A stretch of DNA of 64,000 bases from Amphirosellinia nigrospora (taxonomy: Eukaryota > Ascomycota > Sordariomycetes > Xylariales > Xylariaceae). The notes under the pieces were generated by a model, which was not told the origin of the DNA, searched no databases, and saw only the letters and a list, made by a program, of their open reading frames with translations. A program made the position numbers and the translations under genes. Below, in pieces: positions 3,001 to 64,000 of this stretch (its first letter is position 1; each line of letters opens with the position of its first letter). The stretch lies in contig SCHM01000005.1 of the NCBI GenBank assembly GCA_004123355.1, forward strand, positions 1,054,001-1,118,000. The letters are read 5' to 3'.

Positions 3001-3736
3001 GCTTCATTTCCTTCTTCGCCATAGTCTTTAATGCCTTGTCCCTCCGATCCTCAAACATCCTGGTGCCTGCAGCTTCTTCAATCATGGCGAGTATCTCGAC
3101 AGACTTCATATTTAGGACCTTTGTGATCTTGCCCTGCATGATCAAGAAATTGGGGTTGTTGATATTGAGTTGTACGGATTGGAACAGGTTCTGTACGGTC
3201 TGCTGTTGTGCGCGATGTCCGTTGATTAGGTATTTCGACGTACCGCCTAGGACGATCTGTCTGGTGACGCTGATGGTGGCATATTCTTCGAATCCGATGG
3301 GGATTTCTCCTTATCTTTGTTATCGAAGACGATGGTGACGCTCGCTTTCGTAACACCTGCCTGACCGCGCTTGTATATCAAATCCTGTCCGGCGTGCTTG
3401 TCAGCCTCATAATGCGCCTGGGAGCTTCCACACTAGTTGTTCGTACCTGTAAGTTTTGCGCCCGCACAGTTGACATGTTTGTGATGCCCAGCACAAAGCA
3501 AATGGAATCTAGAATGTTGGATTTGCCACTGCCATTGAGGCCGGTAATGGAGTTGAAGCTCTCGTCCCTGTGCGACATCAGCACCCACAATGCGCAGGTG
3601 GGTTGGACCTTGTTTACTCACCATCCTGAGATGACGGTCCTCACCGCATATGATTTGAACCCCTTTGGCTGGTTAGAGTGACATTTCTGGAATTATCAAG
3701 AGCACTTACGTCTATGATAACTTCTATGACCCTCAT
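1..3736 (-). CDS. SMC2: Condensin subunit SMC2 (3' end cut by the window edge)
   Basis: Core ATPase of condensin, which compacts mitotic chromosomes in the nucleus with SMC4. Five exons read on the minus strand: 3736-3710, 3662-3622, 3567-3447, 3384-297 and 225-1; introns of 47, 54, 62 and 71 bp have GT/AG ends. The N-terminus ([15 protein letters not shown]) carries the Walker A motif GLNGSGKSN. Two long coiled coils flank a hinge ([10 protein letters not shown], then [10 protein letters not shown]). The ABC signature LSGGQRS is split by the last intron, and Walker B ([11 protein letters not shown]) follows. About 1167 codons are visible against roughly 1180 in the family, so only the extreme C-terminus lies outside. 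The frame breaks once, at a G4 run (3299-3302 on plus), between [11 protein letters not shown] and [10 protein letters not shown]; one added base restores the rest, so a sequence error is likelier than a pseudogene. The family identification is firm. Confidence 0.96.
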
Positions 3737-8854: not shown

Positions 8855-10928
8855 ATGTTCAAGGCTTCTATACAGCGGCAAGTCCGCTTGGGCAATGTTG
8901 CTCGCCAGTTCTCGACTGTCTCTTTGGTGCGAACCGCTGGTTCCAGGCACCTCCCCGCCCTGCGCCAGATAGCTTCACAGCCAGCATTGTGGCGTCTCGC
9001 CCCAACACATGCTGTATCCCGTCTATACTCGGCCGAATCAGCTGCTGCCCAATCAGAGCGGAAAGGGGAGTTTGCTGCCGTGGAATCGGCCCCCGTCTCA
9101 CGGTTCAGCGAACTATCCCGGCTCGGTGTCAACCCGAACCTCGTCGAGGCTCTGACCAAGGGCATGGGCTACGACGCCATGACTGAGGTGCAAGCTATGA
9201 GCATCAATTCTGCGCTGAAGGGACCGACATGTGAGCCAACCCAACCCAACCCTCTTCGTTGCTTGTTTCACCCTAACTAATCACTTTCATAGGGTCGCTC
9301 AAGCCAAGACTGGCACAGGAAAGACGCTAGCTTTCTTGGTCCCTCTATTCCAGCGCGTGTTGATGGATCAACCTGAACTAGCCGACCGCTTTAACAGACG
9401 TCGCTCTTCCTCGGAAGACATCCGCGCCATTATTCTATCACCTACTCGTGAGCTTGCTGAACAAATCGGTGTCGAAGCCCGCAAGCTGGCCAAGAATACC
9501 GGCATTGTTGTCCAGACCGCTGTAGGAGGCACGCGAAAGCGGGAAGCTCTCGCCCAGATGTGGCGACAGGGCTGTGATATTCTTGTCGCTACGCCCGGAA
9601 GATTAAATGATCTACTCACAGATCCGGATGCCCGAGTGGCAGCCCCCAAGCTACAGGCTTTTGTACTCGATGAAGCGGATCGCATGCTGGATGTTGGCTT
9701 TTCCGAAGAGATGCGGAATTCAAAATCACTACCTGATCCAAGAACAGTGGAACGACAAACTCTTCTTTTCTCCGCCACCATACCCCGAGATGTCGTTCAC
9801 CTGGCTAAGAGCATGGTCCGCCCTGATAACTTTGAATTTGTACAAACAATCAAGGCAGACGACGTAGCAACGCACGAGCGTGTTCCTCAACACCTTGTCA
9901 CCGTCCGAGGCATGGAGAACGTATACCCTACAATCTTCGAGATTGCACAAAAGGCCATAAAGGCGAAAGAGTCTGATCTCCCCTTTAAAGCCATCATCTT
10001 CTTTGCAAGCACCGCTGGTGTTCAATTCGCCTACCAAACCTTCGTCAAGACCTCGCTATTCTCACGTCGCTCTGGACTGCCTTCATTTGAGATCCACTCG
10101 AAGTTGACACAAGCCGCACGCACAAGAAGTGCCGACTACTTCCGCCAGTCCAGGTCTGCCGTTCTGTTCTCGTCCGATGTTACGGCGCGAGGAATGGACT
10201 TCCCCAATGTGACAGACGTCATTCAGGTTGGCCTTCCTCCTGACAGGGATCAATATATTCATCGGGTGGGCCGTACAGGTCGTGCCGGAAACTCTGGCAA
10301 AGGCTGGTTGATTCTCTGTGAACATGAGATAGCAGAAGCACGAAGTCGTCTTCCAGGCCTGCCCATCAAGCCCAACACATCGCTTGAAGCCGCACAGCAC
10401 GTGTTAGGGAGTTCCTCGACATCTGAGGGCATTAACCATATTTTCAGTGAACTAGGTGAGGCATACGGACGGGCGCGCAAGTCTGACTTCCGCGCTATGT
10501 ATCTCGCGTCCCTCGGCCAAAAATTTGGCAGATACCATCGGATCGAAGATCACTTGCTCGCGATGAACAAGTGGTGCACAGAGGGCTTGGGCTGGGCCGA
10601 GACTCCTGCCATAGCCCCTAAACTTGCCCAACAGCGCGGTTTATCACGTGTGCCTGGTATTCGAATCGGTTACGATGAAGACGAGGAAGAACCATATACT
10701 AGACGTGAGCCTGGCAATAACTTTGGTTCACAATCCAATTTCGGCCGTGATAACAACAGAGGTTTTGGTGATCGCCATAACGACAATGGTTTCGGTCGGC
10801 GCGATAACAATAGAGGCTCCGATCGGCGCGATAACAACAGAGGCTTCGGCCGCCGTAATAGTTTTGAGGACAATTTTTCATCGCGCTCTGGTGGTGGATC
10901 GCAACACAGCCGCCAGGCCAGCTTCTAA
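8855..10928 (+). CDS. MSS116: Mitochondrial DEAD-box ATP-dependent RNA helicase, Mss116-like
   Basis: RNA helicase/chaperone expected to act in mitochondria on intron splicing and translation, by analogy with Mss116 and CYT-19. Two exons, 8855-9230 and 9293-10928, flank a 62-bp intron. The N-terminus is rich in R, S and A without acids, as in a mitochondrial presequence. The DEAD motifs occur in order: I AKTGTGKT, Ia PTRELAEQ, Ib TPGR, II DEAD, III SAT, V ARGMD and VI HRVGRTGR. The C-terminal tail is low-complexity, with repeated RRDNNRGFGRR units suited to RNA binding. The exons only join in frame if one base is restored near 9219-9223, turning KGPT into the family motif KGTD-MVAQ; this gives 670 aa. 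Mitochondrial location and the Mss116 name are inferences, the helicase family is certain. Confidence 0.92.
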
Positions 10929-16842: not shown

Positions 16843-16929
16843 ACTCTTGTGCTTGCGTAGCTAGGGAAAAAATGAGTTAGAATGTGGTACATGGTGATAC
16901 TTTCACCTTACTGAGAGGGTAGTAGGGTG

Positions 16930-16997
16930 TAGGGTGAATAGGGCGGTAGGGTGAATAGGGCGGTAGGGTGAATAGGGTGGTAGGGTGAATAGGGTGG
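16930..16997. repeat. Minisatellite: four 17-bp units, telomere-like
   Basis: Four head-to-tail copies of TAGGGTGAATAGGGYGG (16930-16946, 16947-16963, 16964-16980, 16981-16997) differ only at one C/T position. Each unit contains TAGGG twice, as in the fungal telomere repeat TTAGGG. A partial copy precedes the array. It lies about 90 bp upstream of the zinc-finger gene's first ATG, so it could provide binding sites for a telomere-repeat-type factor, or be a neutral slippage array. Confidence 0.9.
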
Positions 16998-20360: not shown

Positions 20361-21979
20361 ATGGATGCTTTTCTAAGAGGCGCAAAGCGCAAGTCATCCG
20401 ATGCCGTGCAAGAATTGACTCGGGATGACGATGACGACGACACGACTGAGGTGAAGCTCGCCATGCTTGCCTCTTTATTTCCGGGCATGTCCCAGGAGAT
20501 ACACTTTGATACTCTTCTAACAAATGATGGATCCGTTGACCAGTCCGCTTCCTCTCTACGCGATGGCCAGAAACAACTGAAGAAGCCTCACAATCCCACC
20601 ACCGTAGGGTCTCAGACGTCGCTAAGGTCCTTCACGTCTAAGACTTCCGTAAACGAAGGAGCTGGGGTAGCCAAAAAGGCGAAGTTGCTGTCTAAAAAGG
20701 GGGCTACACTTTATCTTTACGATCCGCAAGATGTCGCCGATCATACGCCGTGTACTATTATTCACAACTTTCTCCCCCATGAGGAGGCCAACGAGCTACT
20801 CCGAGAACTGCTAGAAGAATCGAAGACTTTTGAGAAAGCTACCTTTAAGCTCTTCGACAATATTGTGCAAAGTCCACATACATCCAGTTTTACCTAGCGA
20901 CCGAGGCCGAAGTGAACATGCAGAAGCATGAGTATTACTATTACGGGGACGTTTGGCGGTAAGTTCAATACTTTGTAACCCCAATTATGAACTAAGTATT
21001 TCAGACTATGCCGAAAGTATAATATTATGTTTTCATCACCTTCTAGGCTCTGATCTAAGCTATAGATGTATCTACTAACTTGCAGCAGGATGTCCGAAGA
21101 ATCACACCTCAACTTCTTCGGGTGAGGCCTAAAGTACAAGAAGCGGTAAATACAGAGATACAAACCCGCACCAAGACTCACTATCCCGGGGGCAAAAAGT
21201 TGAGATACCAATGCCCCGATGAATGGATACCAAATGCAGCCTTTGTGAATTGCTATAATGGACCTCAAGAATCCGTGGGCTACCACAGTGATCATCTTAC
21301 ATACCTTGGCCCCAGAGCCGTCATTGGCTCGTTATCCCTAGGTGTGGCACGGGAGTTCCGTGTTCGTCGTATAGTCCCCAAAGACGCCGATAATAACCTC
21401 ATAGAGGATCCCGACGCGCAGGGACAGATCTCTATTCACTTGCCACACAACTCCCTACTAGTTATGCATGCCGAGATGCAAGAGGAGTGGAAACATAGCA
21501 TTACGCCTGCCCAAGCTATCGATCCTCACCCCGTAGCTGGTAATCGCCGGATTAACGTCACTTACCGATCATATAAATCAAACTTTCATCCCAAATTCAC
21601 GCCACGATGCAAATGCAACCTCCCTGCCATCCTCAGAACCGTACAGCGAAAGAAAGATAGTTGGGGAAAGTACTTCTGGAGTAAGCTCTCTGTTCATTAA
21701 TATCCCAGCTGAAGAGTACTATTCTATCTCTCAGTTTCTTCATTAGGCGGTCTACAACACCTTTCATCAAGCGCTGATCCAAATGTGTGATAGTGTGCCA
21801 TCGTGGTAATGTTCCTGGAAAGGAGAAATGCTCGTTCTTTCCAATGGGCAGACTTCGATGACGATGGAATACCCAGCTGGGATAAAGCACGATATAGGAA
21901 GAGCAGCGCACCGGAAGGTCAGGAACCTATTGTAAACCCGCTAGAGAAACAGCAACCGATAACAACTATAGAGCAATAA
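20361..21979 (+). CDS. AlkB-like Fe(II)/2-oxoglutarate dioxygenase with CUE and GRF zinc-finger domains
   Basis: Predicted oxidative demethylase that repairs alkylated DNA or RNA bases. Exons 20361-20958, 21086-21680 and 21794-21979. The N-terminal part has a CUE-like motif (LAMLASLFPGMSQEIHFDTL) ending in SVDQSASSL. The AlkB core includes the Fe ligands HSD in ESVGYHSDHLTYLGPRAV, the distal His in WKHSITPAQ, and the 2-oxoglutarate-binding RRINVTYR. The C-terminal GRF-type zinc finger runs RCKCNLPAILRT, then KYFWMCHRGN, KCSFFQWADF, bridged by intron 2. Breaks: a T run near 20888 (one T short), a G run at the first donor (20958), and an extra C at 21841. The start at 20361 is the second of two adjacent ATGs. 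The CUE domain suggests a ubiquitin link to the repair. Repair of alkylation damage is inferred from the family. Confidence 0.88.
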
Positions 21980-29488: not shown

Positions 29489-30867
29489 TGGAGAGCATCG
29501 TGTATGTCATGTGCGATCATATATCCATATGGCTCGCGGCGAAATCGTAGACGTAGAGCGAGATACCGGCGCTGGGAATGGAGATCGCAACCTTTCCAGT
29601 AAAAGTCACTGAGAGCTCTCTACGGAGACGTATCACGTCAGCCATCTGACACGAGCTCGAGCATTTCTCATGGCCTATCGGTAAGGCGAGTGGCTTCTGA
29701 AATGCTGCTCTGTTGTTTACCTGTGGATCCGGATGGCAACGCCGATGAAATACTTTCAGTATCCATGTGCGAACCTCAGACACCCCACATCCTGGCTCGG
29801 AGTACTTTCCACGAGCTCCTCCCACGAGTCCTTCAGATACCGCTCATGTTGCTCCGAGTACTTGGGTTTGCGGATGGTGGATCGGGAGTTTGATTGGGGT
29901 TTGCGAGACTCGTGCGTAAACCCGATGGAGTGTGTGTGACGGCCGCAATCCGGCGTGAAGCTCCGTGAGCCTGGACTTGCTCCGCTGTGATAATCTATTT
30001 CGTTCAGCATCGCCGTCAGCTACGGTAGGGAGTTCACTGATAATTATATGATAGCATGGCAGAGACGTTCGGAGGGTTCCAAGCCGTGGAAATGTAGCTT
30101 GCAAGGCAACGTCCTTGTACCATCATTTCTATTTGGGATTAGGCATCTAAGAAATCTATGAACTGGTTGGAGCGGAGGAAGTAGCTATGGTAAACGGGCA
30201 AGCTTAGGGAAGGGATGGGGGATGGAAGGAGTTACAGTTTTTTACATAATGCGTAACAGAAGTCAAGAGAGTAAACATGTTTTTCTATCGAAACAGGAGA
30301 TCTACAATCAAATAAGAATAGCCCCGCCGCTAAGTTGCCGGAACTCGCTTCGTCTTGCGTGTTTCCTCTTTCATATAGCTGTTTCGTAAAATTAGGCAAA
30401 CTTGGAGAAGCTAGAGGCTAAAGCCTTAAAGAAAGTGTTACACCAGTATTATCATATATAGACATTGGATATCAATACGTGTCACAGTAAACATTACTCT
30501 TACGTCTGATAAGAAACCCTTGAGGTAGGTTCAGGAATCTATTGATCAATCTAATTGGGCTTCTGAAAGCTTCAGGTGTCACGCTCTTAGCTATAGTAAA
30601 GTCTAGGTATTTTTTTATTATGACTAGTCCTGCTAGCCCGTTTACTTGCTCGACATCGTGTTAACTTGGCTGTAGAGCCTACCTGGGTGATTAGGAATCG
30701 CTGATGGCTTGAGGCCGTGAAGGGGTTTCCACGATGGTTACAGAACTCTCTGCTTCAAGTCGTGTGTGCTGTATTGGTTGTTATTCAAACACCAACTAAT
30801 TTGAATATACAGTCACAAATATACTGACATATCCTGGTTGGAGTATATTGCCTGCTTGTATGCCACT
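29489..30867. other. Upstream exon candidate and spacer
   Basis: 29517-29825 (minus) contains a plausible upstream exon of the basic protein gene. From 29950 to 30867 I see no gene; the sequence is AT-rich with no clear repeat. Confidence 0.4.
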
Positions 30868-32006
30868 TCAATGTATCAAGTTTGCTATCCTCATTACCTG
30901 TAGCGCACAATCTAGCTGCTTAGCCTCATCTGTTTCCCCAATGTGGGAAACGTGGCACAGCTGAAGAGGAACTGCTCCGACCGTGTCACTCGACACAGTG
31001 TTGTCGTCAAGCCCGACTTGGCCATTGTCTTTTTCGCCACAACGTGCCTCGCAAGGACGCTCACCACAATTGAAGCATTTGCTGCCGTATTTGTTTTTAC
31101 GCTTCTTTTCTGGGCGAGCTGTTTTGTTCTTGCGTTTATAATAACTTGCGCGACTTTTTGCTAGACAATCTGAACAACTCTTTCGATTACTCGCAGTAGA
31201 GCGCTGCCCACATTGAGTGCATATATTCTGGTCTATGCGTTTCTGACGAAATGCGAGACATTTTGCTGCACAAGCTGAACAATAGGTTCGATTACCATCG
31301 GGAGGGCACAGCCCACATCGACCGCATAGATTCTGGTCTATGTATTTCTGACGATATGCGCGTCGTTTTGCTAGACAATCTGAACAACTCTTTCGATTAC
31401 TTTCGGCAGAGCGTTGCCCACATAGAGCGCATAGATTCTGGTTCACGCGTTTCTGACGAAATGCGAGATGTTTTGCTACACAAGCTGAGCAATGGTTTCG
31501 ATTACTCTTGGGAGGGCACAGCCCACATCGAGTGCATAGATTCTGGTCCTACGGATATCCTTCTTTGCGCGCCGTTTTGCTCGACAAGCTGAACAATAGG
31601 TTAGGTTACTCTCAGGAGGGCACTGCTTACAATTAACGCAAATATTTTTATCCCTGAGTTCATAATAATCTCCCCGCGCTTTTGCTAAACAAGCAGAACA
31701 ACAGGCTCGATCTTTTTCGGGAGGGCTTTGCTTACATTGAACGCAAATGTTATTTTTTTTCCACTTAGAATAATAACTTGTGTTCTTTTTTGCTAGACAA
31801 GCTGGACAATAGGTTCGACCCCTTTCGGCGGGTGCAGAACATAGACCGCATATGTTGTTAGATTGGCCCGCCGCTGCTTCGTTAGGCATTGTATGGCCCT
31901 GTACGGTGATTTCGGTACGTTCAGAGCAGCTTGCTGGCTCGGGTTCGACTCCCTTCTCATGTGCTGCTGAGGGAGATGAAACACAGTTGATAGGAGTAAA
32001 GGGCAT
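30868..32006 (-). CDS. Tandem Cys4 zinc-ribbon-like repeat protein
   Basis: Unnamed protein built mostly of seven tandem repeats of about 35 aa (residues ~51-295), each of the form N-[IL]-C-x2-C-x(10-11)-C-x2-C-x-A-K followed by a basic stretch, for example NICVQC...CSACLAK, NLCGRCG...CSACAAK and NICTQCG...CSDCLAK. Each repeat supplies four cysteines in two CxxC pairs, as in a zinc ribbon. A Lys-rich segment and a degenerate eighth unit (KCFNCGERPCEARCGEKD) follow. No intron. One base is missing near 31548; restored, the product has 379 aa. DNA repeats of about 105 bp with high identity (repeats 5 and 7, 4 and 6) show recent internal duplication. Nucleic-acid binding by the charged array is a reasonable inference but is not shown. 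Confidence 0.75.
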
Positions 32007-33915
32007 TTTGGTAAACTAGTGTTGAGGGATCTGTGGTAGCTGGGTTTTTGTTGGTTGTGGGCTGTTACCGTCTTGAGCTCGGGCTTAAATATGAGATTTT
32101 TATGTTAAACTGCCGTTGACCATTGTTTGGCCAAGACAAGGCTATAAGAAAATACGACAACACAATTGATCACGGACAAAAGGTATTGTTGCTAGGTAAT
32201 AAAGGTAGATCTTTAACATAGTATACCTTTTTTGTACGTGCGCATTATTCTGGACGCTCAATCTAAAGGGTTTATATCTCTCTGATTGTTTGAGTACGGT
32301 TTAGACCATCCATCTAGAGCTGAAACCATTACTTGCCAACGGTTGGCCACCAGACTCTCATTTCATCTAATAACTACCTAGGTAACATAGAAAATGATTA
32401 ACTTTGACTTCTGTCTGGAGAGAGAGACACTGAAGTATATTTGCTTTAAACATTACCTACCTAGGCATGGGTGTTTAGTTTAATCAAGTACTTATATACC
32501 TACCTACCTACCTGGTGCGTATGTAAAGTAATGACGGTCTATAGGGAACCTTGTAATTTGGCTGTGGGTTTGCTGCTTACATAATACTTGACATACATAT
32601 ATATGTCTACTACAACAATTATTTCTCCTTGTCTTGTCCTCACGAACGTGGAGTTTCGCCTTCGTCCTGTCAATCCGGGCGGTTCGGTTTAGGTACTTAG
32701 ACGTGGGGGTTTTAGTGGGTAGGTAGGCGGCTAGCCTGACCAAGCTCGGGCTTAGCGTGGTTAGGACCCTGCAACGGTTAAACGAGCCGTGATTTTACTG
32801 ACGGCTGATTTGCTAGAGCTCTTATCAGTGAATCAGATGGTCCCCCAAAGACGTAAAGCCTGAAGCACCAAAGCCCGCCGTTGCTGATCTCTCGTTGGGC
32901 CCTGAACGACCCTCAATTTCTCAAGACTGACACTGCTATCTTCATCATCATCATCTTTTATCAACGGTCAAGATGCTGGGCGTCAAATCTCTCTATTAGG
33001 TGCCCAAGGTCAGTTGCTTGCATTAGCCAATTCACGAGAACCAGCATCATAATTAGCAGATACCCGGCGAACTGCTTGCCTGCTACTTATATGTATATGC
33101 ATGGCAGAAGGGGTCCACTGCCATTGGTAACGTTGAAATGTATGTAGGTGCCGACCTCCAATCCCTACCCTCCTCCGTCTACCTGTTTAGGGGTATGCCT
33201 GTTTCCTGTCCTGTCCTGTAGTAAGATCCCTCGCCTCGGTTGTATCAAGGCAGTAGTATCTGTCTTGCTTATATGCAGCAGCAGCAACAGCGGCAGAAAG
33301 AAGCCGGGCGCATTCTCGACTATACACTTATACTACCTACCTATCGTCATCGTCTATCCATCTCTCATAAGCAAATAGCGTGTCAGCACTGATTTCTCAT
33401 CAGCTTCCAGCCTTACTCTCGGCAACCTGTGCTCCCCCCGCATCATAGGCACCGCACCCACAGCACCCACCATACCTTGGCTATCGCACCGCGCCGCGCC
33501 CGAACACCCGCGCAACATATCGTGTACGACGGCTGAGCACGCATGCCGCGTCGTTGGACTTCCTGGTCTTACCATCGAGTACCGAACTAGCATCGGGATA
33601 CGGCCGCAACTGTTGTCCAGCCCACCATCGAGGGAGTTTTCTGTCGGAAATGGAGCGGATGAATCCCACACTCGACTTTTGCAAGTGAACCCGACGCCTT
33701 TCTATCTAGCGGGGCGTACCCCGACTGCGAGCCTGCTCCGATACACGAAGTGAGCTTGTGTGCGCTGTCTGTGCGAGTGCGAGTCGCACCCGTATATCGC
33801 CTCATTGGTAGTGGACGTCGCCCTCCGTCGCCACACCAGCTGCTATCGCTCTCCTACGAGCTGCCGACGAAGCGCTTCTCAACATTCTTTGCCGGCCGAA
33901 GAGCTAGTCGCAACG
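32007..33915. other. Spacer and probable 5' leader of the Zn2Cys6 gene
   Basis: It contains TACCTAGGTA at 32375-32384 and a TACC tetramer run at about 32497-32513. The right half is pyrimidine-rich and CGCAC-rich, and probably includes the leader of the transcription factor. The factor's frame is open upstream to 33760, so a longer N-terminus cannot be excluded. No separate gene is supported. Confidence 0.45.
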
Positions 33916-36900
33916 ATGGACCTGGATGTCATATCCCCAGATACGTCGACGTCACCGCATCCGCACCCGCACCCTCCGAAGCGCCCTCGTCCCTCATCCC
34001 CGCCTAGCATTAAACACTCGCCCACCTCAGGCTCCGCCGGACCCCTCTCCCCTTCCACCGAACACTTGCATGATGGAACAGGACACGGCGGCGCCAAGTC
34101 TGCCCATGCCCAGAGTAGCAGTAGCTTTCGAAATGTCAGCGCATGTAATCGGTGTCGGTTGCGGAAGAATCGCTGCGACCAGAAGTTGCCCAGTTGCGCG
34201 AGTTGTGAAAAGGCAAGGGTCGCCTGTGTCGGATATGACCCCATAACGAAAAGAGAAATTCCCCGTAGGTCAGTGAAATCGAGACCTGTCCCTAGATCTA
34301 TTCCTAGTAGCTGATCACCCCTAAGCTACGTTTACTACCTTGAGACCCGTGTCGATCAGCTAGAGGCTTTGCTTCGTGCCCAGAACATACAGTTTCCACC
34401 ACCCGAGAATCTGGAGTACTGTTCACGGCCGGGCAATGACGGGGGCCACGCTCGGTCGCCCAATGAAAGTGCCCTCTCAATGCTCTCCGAAGCTGCCGAG
34501 GTCTCTGGTATGCCGCAGCCATTTCCAAATACCGACGATTCCGTGCGGCCCAATAAGATTATGCGAACAGGTGGCGCTACTGGCCCTAGGTATCTCGGGT
34601 CTGCCAATGGTGTCTCTTTTGCGCGCGTTGTATTCGCCGCTGTCCAATCTTCTGTTGGAGATCATCGTTCGACGTCGGATAAGGGGGGGATACGTCCTTA
34701 TAAGTCCGTAATGGGCAATGGAGACGTCGCGGGGGGCACTTCCATGCGTGACTCGTTCTTCGGTCTACATACACGTCCAACTATCAGCCCAGCAGCATTC
34801 CCGGACCAAGATTTGGCCCTAAAACTTGTTGAGTTATATTTTGAGCATGCCAACCCTCAACTACCTGTGCTCTGTAGATTTCATGCAAATGTTTGAGCAA
34901 GCGTACGCAGACGAGGGTAGGATACGAGGTCCCAGGGAGCTCTACACGTTGAACATGGTGTTTGCCATTGGTGGCGGAATTATCATGGACAGCCAGACCA
35001 CCTCGAGGGCCTCGGGAGAAGAAAAGAAACAAGCTCAACCAGAGGAATATCATGCCAGTGCTATCATTCACCTCGAAGCCTGTCTAAACGGCGGCGGGTT
35101 AGAAGAGCTTCAAGCTGTGCTCCTTTTAGCTAGTTTTGCCCTACTACGCCCAGTTCCACCAGGTTTATGGTAAATTCAATTCGGACTTGTTGCATTGGAC
35201 TCTCGACTAACCAGCTATAGGTACATCGTTGGCGTGGCTACAAGACTAGCCGTCGATCTTGGTCTATACTACGAAGATGGGAAAGATGTCGAATTTGACA
35301 TGGGTGAGCGAAAAGGCGGTAGTAGTGTTCCGGACGCGAGTGACAAGTCGCGTGAGGCGGCATTGCGGGAAAGGGGTAGGCGCGAATACATTCGTGACCT
35401 CCGAAGACGACTCTGGTGGTGCACTTATGCTTTTGATAGGATTGTGAGCACCTGCGTCGGACGACCGTTTGGAGTATCTGACCAAGTCATAACTACGGAA
35501 TTTCCATCGATGCTAGAAGATCGATATATTACCCCAGCAGGTATCACCAACCCTCATATGAATGGCGGGCCAACCTATAAAGTCGTTGCTAAGCACTATC
35601 TACGACTTCGGCTGTTGCAATCTGAGATTCTCCAGGTATTGCAATACCAGCAAGCACAGACAGCAAGGTTCAACGGCCAGAACCGGCGGAACGAGTACAT
35701 GCATACTCAGCTACCCTCACCATTTCTCTCCAAGTTTGACTCATTTAGAAGTTGGAGGAAAAACATTGACGAAAGGTTGTACGCATGGAAGAACTCAGCG
35801 CCAACGAAGCAAGACTCTGGGGTAGCATTTTCGCCCGAATTTTTAGAGCTGAATTACTGGCAGGCAATAATCATGCTTTATCGGCAGAGTCTAAGTGTTC
35901 CCGCTATGTTTGAGAGCGAATATCATACTTCCAAGGAGGTGAACAGCCCATCAATCTACTCACAAGAGTTGCAAGAAGATCAGGAAAGAGTCTATCTCAA
36001 GGTCGCTGAGGCAGGGCAAAAGATCCTGCGCCTCTACCGACAATTACATTTACAAGGGCTCGTTAATTATACGTATCTCGCCACACATCACCTGTTCATG
36101 GCAGGAATCTCTTACCTATATGCAATTTGGCATTCGCTCGTTGTTAGGAGTCGCCTTGTAAGTACATCATGTGCCTCAAAAGTGAGATCAAATGTTAATC
36201 AGGATGTAGACTATGGATGAAGTTGACTTCACCATCTTGGCTGCTACATCGGTTTTTAGTGATCTCATTGACAAATGCCCACCTGCGGAGGCATGTCGTG
36301 ATGCGTTTGACCGAACAGCAAAGGCCACCATAAAAATGGCCAACTCCAACGGCGGGTTTGGCCAAGTCTTAAACCGACATACACGAGGATCGAGAGGTAG
36401 TAGCGATAGGATCGACTATCTTACCGCGAGAGAAGCAACGGCCAATCGTCAGAAACTGAGTTCGCATTCACCCATAGACCAATCTAGTTCTCGTTCAGCC
36501 ACAGTATTTGAAGCGTCGTCTCACGAACCATATACTACACATAAACCTCTCGCTCAAATGACAGCTATGCAGTCGGCTACACAAGCGTCCCCTTATCGTC
36601 TGAATGTTTCAAACATCAAATCCGAACATGATGTATATCCTATGACTCGGCCATTGCCCGGCACAACGCTCAATCCCAGTGGCCTCCCTGAGGTTGGCAC
36701 AATGCCGGATAATTCGGCTATCGACCCTATCCTACTACCCTCACAAAGCTCGCAGGTAAACTCACCAGGATCCGCGGCCAGCCTAACGCCAAAATCTGTG
36801 CATCAACAGTATACCCCCAGAATGGTCCAAACTCAAATTTTAATATGCTGAGGACGCCACCGGCCAATTTTGCTCCTGGACCAGTGGCTCTAAATCTGTC

Positions 36901-38106: not shown

Positions 38107-38844
38107 TTAAAACATAAACCACTTGATGAGAAAAGCAGCCTTTAGTAACCATTCGAAAAATCCCCTATTCTCGATTACGAAGCTCTTGACTGACCCTGCG
38201 GCGTAGAGTAACAGGTCTTTACTCCAATCGACGAGTGGCCGTTGCTTTGCCACGAATTCTATAACTGCGTATGTGGCGTCAATTATGAACTCTTTACAAC
38301 GGTTCACGAGTCCGGATACTGACTCGACTGCGTACTCTATCAATGCTGACGTGTACCCTCCCGTCTCGTGCTTTTGGTTCGTCGATTCCTTCCGTTCCTC
38401 TTCTTCTGCCGTCGCGGCTCTGGCTCTCTCAAATTCCTCCTCCCTTCTACGTCGCCTTTCTGCGTTTCGTAGGCAACGCTTGTACTGCCATGGGTTGGCT
38501 CCCATATATCTTACATCATACTCGCAGCGCTCATCACTTGAGAGCAAATCGTACGCTGATCGGATACGGGCGTAGTGCATCTTAGCTTGCGACTGTTCAA
38601 ACTCGCTCGCCCTCTGGAACTTGTCAGGGTGATACATAAGGGCTTTGGCGCGGTACGCTCGCCTGATCTGAGCGTCTGTCGCGTCTAATGTGATACCCAA
38701 GGCCGTGTAGTGGTTCATGGGTGGGGAGCTGCCCAAGTCAGTGAATGCCTCACTGTGCACGGTGAACGATACGGCGAAGATCAGTGTGAGTAAGAAAACG
38801 CCATAGGCGGCGAGCTGAAGGCGTCTAACGATGGGTCGAACCAT
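38107..38844 (-). CDS. Membrane-anchored J-domain (DnaJ-like) protein
   Basis: Hsp40 co-chaperone expected to stimulate an Hsp70 ATPase. A single uninterrupted frame of 245 aa starts at 38844; an in-frame ATG 33 bp upstream is less likely because the hydrophobic anchor directly follows MVRPIVRRLQ. The anchor covers about residues 8-28 (AAYGVFLLTLIFAVSFTV). The J domain runs from about 44 to 109: YTALGITLDATDAQIRRAYR, the invariant HPD in YHPDKF, then YARIRSAYDLLSSDERC. After it come a charged helix (RRRRREEEFERARAATAEEE) and a region of amphipathic helices ending in a hydrophobic stretch (WLLKAAFLIKWFMF). An ER location with the J domain lumenal or cytosolic is possible; the sequence does not decide. 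It has no frame break. Confidence 0.85.
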   Translation of the reverse strand: MVRPIVRRLQLAAYGVFLLTLIFAVSFTVHSEAFTDLGSSPPMNHYTALGITLDATDAQIRRAYRAKALMYHPDKFQRASEFEQSQAKMHYARIRSAYDLLSSDERCEYDVRYMGANPWQYKRCLRNAERRRRREEEFERARAATAEEEERKESTNQKHETGGYTSALIEYAVESVSGLVNRCKEFIIDATYAVIEFVAKQRPLVDWSKDLLLYAAGSVKSFVIENRGFFEWLLKAAFLIKWFMF

Positions 38845-40410
38845 TTTTGCTGTTGAAGAGTGAATCGAGAGAGTCAATCTTACTTTTCGACTTGTTTGGG
38901 CGTTTCTGTTTTTTTCTTGTTGATAGTATGTTTCAAGTGTTGGGTTAGATGGGGAGTATACTCACTGTATTTGTACCTTGATGTTATGAAGGGGGAGGTG
39001 GGTTATGAGGAAGACGAGTAAGGAAGGTCGGGCCCTTGGCCTGGTTTTATGCCTAAGAATCATGAAGAAACATAGTCTTTGTTTTCTGCCAATGATACAT
39101 TCACATGTTCTTAACAAGACAATTGTTGTGCGATTGTTTATCTTACCGTTGTAGTTCGTTAACAAAGGAGCTGTAATATCTGGCTATTACACGTGCTAAG
39201 GAATTAGGTCACGAATCTGAGGCCGAGAAGCTACCTATCATGTATGTTATCATACTAGTACGCCCTTCCGGATGAAGCGTCAGCTATCTAGTTACCCGTA
39301 CATTTCCCGACCTCCATGACAGCCGTACGAAAGCGAAGGGGTAAGGGGGCGCGAAGCAAGGTAATTGGAAGCGAGGCTATTGAGGTATATAGGCAGGAAA
39401 TCCTTACTTCAAGGGAGTGAGGGGACAAGACCTTTATAACCCCTTTGACTCCTAAGAAGATTGCAACGCTTGGAATATCCTTCTAAGCCCTCGAACACAA
39501 GCCGTTGTTACAGACTGCACTCAAGTAACGATAATGTAAATGCTACAGAAGCTTAGCGAAAATTAGAGTTCTTGCAAGTGAATGGCAGAACTAATTTATT
39601 AACTGATTAATCCAATATCAGTGATAAATTCGGATCTATGTCGATTGAGTGGACGTGTCGGTAACCTCGAAACCCCAAAGGTAGATGACCGCAGTGTAAA
39701 GCAGCGATTCTTCAGTCGCGCATCGAAAAGACACACCGATGCCGGCACTACCGGATATGTGCCTATGAACATTTTCAATATCAATTACTCGAGAGAAAGC
39801 GTCAGGTTGAATACACAATTTAAATTGCTACATCTGAAACTGAAGTATGACGTGGGGGCGAAAACGTTGAAGGAATGACTGACGGAGCGCTAGCGGGAGG
39901 GGGGTGCGTTTCCCAAGCTACTTTTATCATGGAACTTTTGGCATCTAAGTAAAAATCTCTAAGCCTCACCTTCGAGGGACATGTTCTCCTAGGCATAGAG
40001 GATTTGGCAGCATTTAATATAGCTGGCTTATCAGTCCTACGATACTGGGATCGCGGAGTCGGCGATAACCTCTACTTTAGCAAAGCTCGCAGCAGACTGC
40101 TCGCAGATGTCGGCGGATTTGAACGGGGTCAGTTTAGGGTTCATTCCCTAGAATCAAAGGCTTTAGATGCGTTCTAGTTCAGTTCTATATTTAACTCTCA
40201 ACCTCAACTAAGTTGCCGATGCAGAAGGATCATGTGGCGAAATCCCCACTCAGCCTCTGTCGATCTTCAACAAGTTGAAACCCGCTCTTCCTACTACCGA
40301 TGAATCCGTAAATGTTGCAATTCTATAATTTCTATCCTACATATTCATTATTGGGAGCCAGCTTTGAGAACTGATGTGGAAACCGCACTACAAAGCTCGA
40401 AGAAGCTAAG
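38845..40410. other. Spacer with a dispersed repeat copy
   Basis: Contains repeat copy 2 (39412-39560). A plus-strand open frame at 39621-39878 has no recognisable domain. AT-rich, possibly decayed mobile-element sequence. No RNA gene seen. Confidence 0.4.
39412..39560. repeat. Diverged interspersed repeat, copy 2
   Basis: Second copy of the repeat described at 37915-38060. A third, weaker relative (TTTTAGAACCCCTTTGTCCC) occurs at about 41669. No terminal structure could be defined. Confidence 0.4.
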
Positions 40411-61921: not shown

Positions 61922-62823
61922 CTAGGCCCGCATACATCTACGCGCATTACGCCTTATTCTCCCGCATAATACGATGTCTTCACCGAGCGGCAACCACATG
62001 GTGTCAGACAGTCTTGCTACCGGCGTATCAGCACCGAGTATGCGCGGAGGACTCACGGTAACACCCCCTGTCCAAGCCACATTGGAGCAATTGTGATGAT
62101 GACACTATCCACTAAATCCGCGTTCTCCCCTAGCAACGAGTTGATGACCTGGGCGCCTCCCTCGACCATGATGCTACGAAGACCTTCCTGCCGCACAGCC
62201 GATAGAATGACACGCCAATCGAGGCGATGAGTACTGCTATCTCCATCCCGATGGCCGTTCAATACGATGAACTTCCCTCCAACGGCTTCTAATATGCCCC
62301 TTTTGTGTGCCGATGGCTCCTTTTCCAGAGTCACGATATAGGGCGCCAGCCCCTTGCCTTCGCGCGCTAGTCGCATGACCTTGCTCTGAGCGGTGAAATC
62401 CCAGCGCAGGCGCGGATCGACGATGATAGGCCGTGGCTGATGAGGTGTGATTCCGTTCCCGGTGCTCCCTTCACCCTCACGACCGACACCGGCCGAGTCA
62501 GGCGCGACATCAGCCAACCGAGAGTTCAGACCCGGATCGTCCGCCATGGCAGTTCCGACGCCAACGCAGATGGCGTCGTGCCGGCTGCGAAGGTAGTGCG
62601 TCATGGCCTTGGACTGAGGCCCGCTTAGCGCGGTGCGGATCCCAGGCCCTAGTGCCAGCGCAGAGTCAAGCGAGGTGGCGAAAGTGAGTGTTGTAAAGGG
62701 GAGCACGGACGGTAATGGCGGTGAATCTACGCCCTCCGGATGCGAGGAAAATTGGGGAGGCGGCAAGTGAGGTTCCAAACGGTCACGGTCGGCTGCAGGA
62801 AAATTGAGCGGTGCCTCGGCCAT
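61922..62823 (-). CDS. RIB7: 2,5-diamino-6-ribosylamino-4(3H)-pyrimidinone 5'-phosphate reductase
   Basis: Riboflavin-pathway enzyme that reduces the ribose side chain of the GTP-derived pyrimidine with NADPH. The start at 62823 (MAEAPLNF) precedes the domain; the frame is open upstream to 62979 but that part looks like leader. The reductase core shows FTTLTFATSLDSALALGPGI, SKAMTHYLRSRHDAICVGVG and TAMADDPGLNSRL, then RPIIVDPRLRWDF and the motif LRSIMVEGGAQVINSLL of the NADPH-binding end. The C-terminus (PRILGADTPVARLSDTMWLP) is in another frame after a one-base loss at a C5 run (62064-62068 on plus); restored, the enzyme has 300 aa. No intron is visible. The family call is firm; riboflavin synthesis is essential in most fungi without uptake. 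Confidence 0.9.
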
Positions 62824-64000
62824 TCTGGATTTGGGTGAAACACCAAACGGCCGTTTGTTTCGCTCTCTGATTATACGGGCCGCGGGGGTTGGGGTGAGGT
62901 TGTATTCTGACTTGAACAAGAGCTGGGAATCGGCAGGGCCACTTGCATTATGTGGATTCGCCTCCTCAACGTGCTGCAAGTCTTAGAGTTTCAGTAGTGC
63001 CTGCGGTAAAGCCACCGGTTTTCAAGAGATGCGGTATACCGGCCGAAAAAAACATTGATTCAGATGTGGTCATGATCTCTCAGTGGGTCTCTAAATCACC
63101 AGCACTTAAACTACCTACCTAGCCCGCCAGCACAATTACTACGTTAGGCACGGTTATGTCAACAATTAACCCAGATGACTATCGAGGTATCTTTCTTTTT
63201 TTCCTACATAGAAGAGAACTTGGCCAAATAGGAAAATAGCTTCCCAGATACCTTGAATGTTCATCTTGCTCAAAAGTCTGGGCAATCTGGACACATAACT
63301 TGGTACGATTTCTCATCTCTTTCAGACCCCGGCTTGCTTAGATAAGGTATAGATGGCACTATTCTATCCCACACCACACAGACTACAATAATAATATTCG
63401 AGAACAAGTTTGCCAAGGCCGCCCTCTATTCCCTGATTTTGACCTCTTTCTCTTGCTTCTGTCACACCGGCACAACCACGCACTGCGACCTAATAGCCAT
63501 TCATCATAACCACCCGCCGTAGAAGACGGAAGAGGCCCCGTCCTCACCCGAAGCCATATGGCTTTTTCATCGTGACTTGTTCTTTACTCAGCTACGCTAC
63601 ACAATGCACCGACTGGGCGCCTTGGCAATCGGATATTCACCCAGGATCTAATAATAATTCGCTCCACGAGTCCCATCAGCTTCGTACCCAACCCAAGAGT
63701 GGCGATTGAAGGGTAGCGAGAAGGACAGACAACAAGTATGTTCATAGGTGTCCTCGTAGCCCCAGAGAGCATCGCGGTGGGCCTTACGTCAGATCATATA
63801 CATCGAGGTATAGATACATGGGCGCCGTGACAAGAGACGGAAAAGAAGCCTGCATCGAACATGGCTCAAAGCGGGACAGCAGATGAGAGAATCGTACGTT
63901 CGCTGCCTCGGACGTACGGTTCGGTCCTGTGGTCTTGCATACAATAAACCACACAAAGTCCGAATCTGGATGAGTAGTTGGGATGGCAGCATTCATACAG
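62824..64000. other. Upstream region of RIB7 to the window end
   Basis: An upstream in-frame extension of RIB7 reaches 62979. A partial motif (CTACCTACCTAG) lies at about 63112. Beyond this I see no gene: the remaining frames are short and without domains. Confidence 0.45.

Follow-up and report, generated by a model that had tools for sequence, protein, structure and literature searches.

A tandem array of short Cys4 modules split between two reading frames in Amphirosellinia nigrospora

The window considered here is a stretch of 64,000 nucleotides (nt) from contig SCHM01000005.1 (positions 1,054,001 to 1,118,000, forward strand) of the ascomycete Amphirosellinia nigrospora (assembly GCA_004123355.1), whose minus strand carries a tandem array of modules of about 35 amino acids (aa) with four cysteines each (Cys4). 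From an ATG at 32006, in the context TTTACCAAAATGCC, which is favourable by fungal usage, a leader of 50 aa is followed by seven units of the consensus N-[IL]-C-x2-C-x10/11-C-x2-C-x-A-K plus a basic tail, whose first-Cys codons lie at 31850, 31745, 31640, 31536, 31431, 31326 and 31221 of that strand. All their ligand cysteines are retained (28/28), the two CxxC pairs are x11 apart in six of the seven units and x10 apart in unit 1, basic residues follow the fourth Cys in most units, and a degenerate eighth unit, KCFNCGERPCEARC, is present. When the window was scanned in six frames, the pattern C..C.{9,13}C..C matched nine times, and seven of these matches are the units of the array; of the remaining pair, one is a Zn2Cys6 motif (34144) and one, at 3476, has its first CxxC interrupted by a stop codon. 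Given this concentration (7/9 within the array), a chance motif was rejected.

An initial annotation had described the element as one fungal protein with seven such units and a degenerate eighth, encoded between 30868 and 32006. The units, the eighth copy and both limits (start codon at 32006, stop codon at 30868) were all found, but the single protein was not: the anchors of units 1-7 follow one another at steps of 105, 105, 104, 105, 105 and 105 nt and, since the step between units 3 and 4 falls one nt short of the others, units 1-3 and units 4-7 stand in different frames (Table 1). The upstream frame meets a stop at 31476-31478, so that the ATG at 32006 opens a protein of 176 aa with three modules, whereas in the downstream frame an ATG is found only among the last ten residues. 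The net discrepancy of one nt most likely lies in the tail of unit 3. What is found, in short, is a real and unnamed array of Cys4 modules that, as given, is not one seven-module protein; the break, which had been overlooked, weakens the claim of a working seven-unit protein.

Table 1. Coordinates of the array and of other features in the window.
Feature	Coordinates	Strand	Basis or content
Open frame 1	31479..32006	-	ATG to last sense codon, 176 aa: 50-aa leader, units 1-3, ~24 out-of-register residues
Unit 1 (C-x2-C-x10-C-x2-C)	31752..31856	-	motif scan
Unit 2 (x11 spacing)	31647..31751	-	motif scan
Unit 3, Cys core and first part of tail	31557..31646	-	motif scan
Unit 3 tail, likeliest place of frame discrepancy	31549..31565	-	anchor spacing 104 vs 105; tail comparison
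Open frame 2	30868..31548	-	226 sense codons and stop: units 4-7, degenerate unit 8, C-terminus
Unit 4 (A-type of duplicated AB block)	31438..31542	-	motif scan
Unit 5 (B-type)	31333..31437	-	motif scan
Unit 6 (A-type)	31228..31332	-	motif scan
Unit 7 (B-type core; tail unlike that of unit 5)	31123..31227	-	motif scan, unit comparison
Degenerate unit 8, Cys core only (C-x2-C-x5-C-x3-C)	31039..31080	-	sequence and translation
DEAD/Helicase_C open reading frame	9219-10928	+	domain match
2OG-Fe(II) oxygenase open reading frame	21059-21700	+	domain match
DnaJ open reading frame	38107-38961	-	domain match
RibD_C open reading frame	62053-62982	-	domain match

The repeat structure can be followed at the nucleotide level, where Tandem Repeats Finder reports a period of 105 (4.6 copies, 75% matches, 31147-31623) and another of 210 (2.1 copies, 84% matches, 31147-31596). 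From the alignments, units 4-5 and units 6-7 are a duplicated two-unit block: the two copies differ at 24 sites in the 180 nt compared (the final 30 nt of units 5 and 7, which have diverged, being excluded), and full-unit identity is 0.86 between units 4 and 6 and 0.74 between units 5 and 7. Without gaps, units 2-7 are 57-86% identical over 105 nt and 65-88% over their first 75 nt, and unit 1 is 30-40% identical to the others over 105 nt, the values for unit 1 (which needs a one-codon gap) and unit 3 (which crosses the break) being underestimates. The view that the units are very alike, and hence recent, is thus tenable for the cores of block 4-5 against block 6-7 and not for units 2-7 overall, whereas expansion by duplication is supported by the two-unit block, by the invariant Cys columns and by the variation around them. 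Over 75 nt of units 2-7, 27 of the 50 columns at codon positions 1 and 2 vary as against none of the eight Cys columns (hypergeometric P ~0.0009, a post hoc value because the units were anchored on Cys).

Whether the array frame was maintained while the blocks diverged was approached by simulation. With 20,000 runs per block and 24 neutral changes, 37% of the outcomes were free of stops and 6% kept all eight cysteines, and both occurred together in 2.5% and 2.4%; because so few neutral simulations preserved the open frame and the cysteines, the frame was probably under constraint during that divergence, on evidence that is modest. The ratio of nonsynonymous to synonymous differences per site (pN/pS) favours no frame, since three frames with stops give lower values (0.44, 0.45 and 0.67) than the array frame (1.03, from 5.5 synonymous and 18.5 nonsynonymous differences between blocks). 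Moreover, the latter value is the sum of unlike parts: over 75 nt there are 1 synonymous and 10 nonsynonymous changes between units 4 and 6, as against 4 and 5, respectively, between units 5 and 7. Among the 15 pairs of units 2-7, 11 have a nonsynonymous to synonymous rate ratio (dN/dS) above 1, to which no significance is attached and which fits diversification, relaxed constraint or noise.

The composition of the array is also distinct, with a wobble-position GC of 0.31-0.33 in the units (31126-31850) against 0.46-0.48 in the leader and the C-terminus, and 0.47-0.61 in five other open reading frames (ORFs) of the window. Repeat-induced point mutation was rejected, as TpA/ApT (0.83; window 0.88) and (CpA+TpG)/(ApC+GpT) (1.27; window 1.12) both fall on the side of these indices that does not indicate it. 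On the plus strand, an antisense frame of 130 codons (31200-31592) is open over units 4-6, extends partly into units 3 and 7, and is taken as a by-product of the repeat; antisense coding was rejected, since that frame leaves units 1-2 uncovered and, of the plus frames in the block test, that with the fewest stops (0 and 1) gives a pN/pS of 1.15.

Within its own genome (11 contigs, 48.1 Mb), DNA and protein searches found no second copy of the array, the counts of these searches being lower bounds, and a repeated element was rejected because the region 29500-33800 matches only itself there. A degenerate pattern gave 23 matches in the genome (control, 5). Five of these fall in the array; among the 18 outside it, none (0/18, translations read by eye) has an in-frame CxxC at module distance upstream. 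As for named families, no convincing model was found for the ORFs in Pfam, NCBIfam (best expectation value, E, 0.031), PHROGs (0.17) or PADLOC (0.043, DpdJ). At E up to 10, with the HMMER filters dropping most matches above E ~0.1, Pfam listed for the ORFs only DZR, DZR_2 and zf-UBR, all below their gathering cut-offs (DZR_2, 10.7 and 8.2 bits vs 27; DZR, 12.2 vs 27.3; zf-UBR, E 2.7 and 8.6 bits vs 25.2). The single units, which were scanned against Pfam only, touched 16 weak families. The lowest E (0.0053) was the best of the DZR_2 matches, which were seen in three of the seven units; a TRIM66 B-box came in at E 0.13 and a single C2H2 model at E 0.53. Neither Zn2Cys6, GATA, C2H2 nor any other zinc finger of Pfam reached its gathering score. 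The initial remark that no named eukaryotic family is known to have this build is supported for Pfam-A (ORFs and single units), for NCBIfam, PHROGs and PADLOC (ORFs only) and for the PDB. Beyond these collections, searches of prokaryotic and viral sequences were equally unconvincing: tblastn gave one record for phages (E 9) and two for plasmids (E 7 and 8), and no pattern match in viral contigs (7 and 23) or genome contigs (89) was confirmed as a relative. Rfam had no match over 30000-33500, and the portions of the literature retrieved hold no description of such a Cys4 array.

A knuckle-plus-helix fold is predicted for the module by one good model out of five. In that model, the best AlphaFold2 prediction for two units (predicted local distance difference test score 84.1), helices span residues 20-35 and 55-69, each beginning just past the third Cys, and there is no strand of three residues and no beta hairpin, the only bridge pair (residues 38 and 45) being in the second unit; the four-unit model was poor. 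No fold match for the module was found in the PDB, and the zinc-ribbon label given at the outset becomes doubtful with a helix at that place and no such strand.

The explanation that we prefer, and to which we give an even chance, is that of a fungal gene, found at one locus, made of tandemly duplicated modules of ~35 aa, probably nucleic-acid-binding, that is now frame-broken or misassembled. Each metal-binding module would run from a CxxC knuckle through a loop to a second CxxC, where a helix starts, and on into a basic helix or tail, and would hold one zinc ion; tandem duplication would have built the array, and its serial basic helices could confer avidity for DNA or RNA like that of other multi-finger proteins, so that the multivalent binding initially suggested may apply. 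The one-nt break between units 3 and 4 would leave the three-module protein of 176 aa and turn units 4-7 into an untranslated relic, unless the break comes from misassembly or is an allele carried by this strain. This exception is the core of a tentative alternative, less probable than an even chance but still serious, that overlaps the preferred explanation on module function: the normal gene would encode one protein of ~380 aa with seven working modules, and the break would be an assembly error or a rare allele. Consistent with this are the 226 open codons past the break with 16/16 ligand cysteines of units 4-7, as well as the divergence of the blocks with neither a new stop nor a lost ligand Cys, although, around the break, divergence of the unit 3 tail from its counterparts in units 4-6 suggests a real history there. 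That an intron joins both frames into one spliced protein with fewer complete modules is distinctly unlikely. Short introns are usual in such fungi, and many GT/GC...AG pairs that lie 45 to <260 nt apart, with the donor above 31470 and the acceptor below 31605, lead to an open frame of >200 codons, precisely because the region is open; an example is 31505-31453 (53 nt, GTAATC...CGTCAG), and introns of 146 and 155 nt would start at GTAAGC donors at 31630, their branch-like motif lying 120 and 129 nt away from the acceptor. Nevertheless, when these candidates were judged, unscored, by length, donor, branch motif and effect on the modules, no branch-like motif (of those searched for) lay within 55 nt of an acceptor, none of the candidates of 80 nt or less had one, and the 53-nt and GTAAGC candidates cut through modules; furthermore, units 5 and 6 contain strings similar to GTAATCG...CGTCAG, and excision of 53 nt from these units would disrupt the frame. 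A single-base change within the unit 3 tail, or an assembly error, seems likelier than splicing. Programmed frameshifting was rejected, no slippery site having been recognised at the junction by eye.

The remaining explanations concern the nature of the modules. A Cys-rich metal buffer or store, instead of a nucleic-acid binder, would agree with four Cys repeated every ~35 aa and with the lack of any recognised DNA-binding family, and is nonetheless improbable, as strictly spaced CxxC pairs, a predicted helix and a basic tail would exceed metallothionein-like needs. Capture and amplification of the zinc finger of the ribosomal protein eL37, of which the modules would be paralogues, is extremely unlikely. 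This protein ranks first against the PDB both for the unit profile (E 0.013, with the spacing C-x2-C-x11-C-x2-C in common, as in six of the seven units) and for the four-unit ORF (E 0.056, eL37 making up 13 of the 14 matches listed), and, when all non-Cys columns of the profile are shuffled, only 3/300 versions reach its score on the eL37 of the same genome. However, that eL37 reaches only 9.4 bits (E 9.8) with the unit profile, 35/300 profiles do as well under the stricter control of shuffling within the inter-cysteine stretches, eL37 carries three extra residues directly past the fourth Cys, and Pfam Ribosomal_L37e matched one of the seven units at E 0.13, below the family cut-off; with 35/300 and 3/300 shuffles as good, the eL37 origin was rejected, though the rejection falls short of proof. 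Unlikely, too, is a reading in which the array represents a so far undescribed fungal family of Cys4 proteins with multiple modules, expanding by duplication of two-unit blocks and diversifying between the fixed cysteines towards unit-specific nucleic-acid or protein targets; the break would then be an individual allele and the number and content of units would vary among strains. If intact alleles exist, the array would offer a natural scaffold in which very short zinc modules stand in series and diverge unit by unit, and on which the origin of finger arrays could be studied; a break that is real and fixed would make it an illustration of how a repeat gene is born and decays, an ordinary event. 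The array may be a decaying gene of narrow distribution.

Regarding the surroundings, the divergent neighbour of the array gene is a Zn2Cys6 transcription factor spread over several ORFs (33754-36220, plus strand), with Zn_clus in 33754-34311 and Fungal_trans in 35174-36217. Elsewhere in the window lies a tandem repeat of TAGGGTGGTAGGGTGAA (16923-16997, 4.5 copies, 94% matches), G-rich and telomere-like in look, yet internal to it, and contig 10 of the same genome carries at least three equal-scoring 5.8S rRNA genes. The internal transcribed spacer region of the genome has a xylarialean look.

Among known systems, treble-clef-type fingers consist of a knuckle, a hairpin and a helix carrying the second ligand pair. 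The predicted module resembles them in its knuckle ligands and in having two more ligands where a helix starts, and differs in that no fold match was found and the model has no beta hairpin. The double zinc ribbons DZR and DZR_2 (PF12773, PF18912) share CxxC modules with the array, whose model has instead a helix at the second CxxC and whose ORFs score far below their cut-offs. The eL37 finger (PF01907) is similar in the CG after the first pair and in the CSxC and AK..R..Y stretch after the second, but it is a single finger and the similarity does not rise above the stricter of the two column-shuffle controls. Lactococcus lactis has zinc membrane proteins with CX2CX10CX2C (PMC4628341), likened to unit 1 by this spacing alone and, in contrast to the array, bacterial and membrane-bound. 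Finally, in the WD repeats of the Podospora HNWD genes (PMC2873952), fungal repeat proteins with amplified and diversifying units, tandem units of one gene duplicate and diverge much as the modules would have done here, although Pfam reports no NACHT/STAND or WD domain for either ORF of the array.
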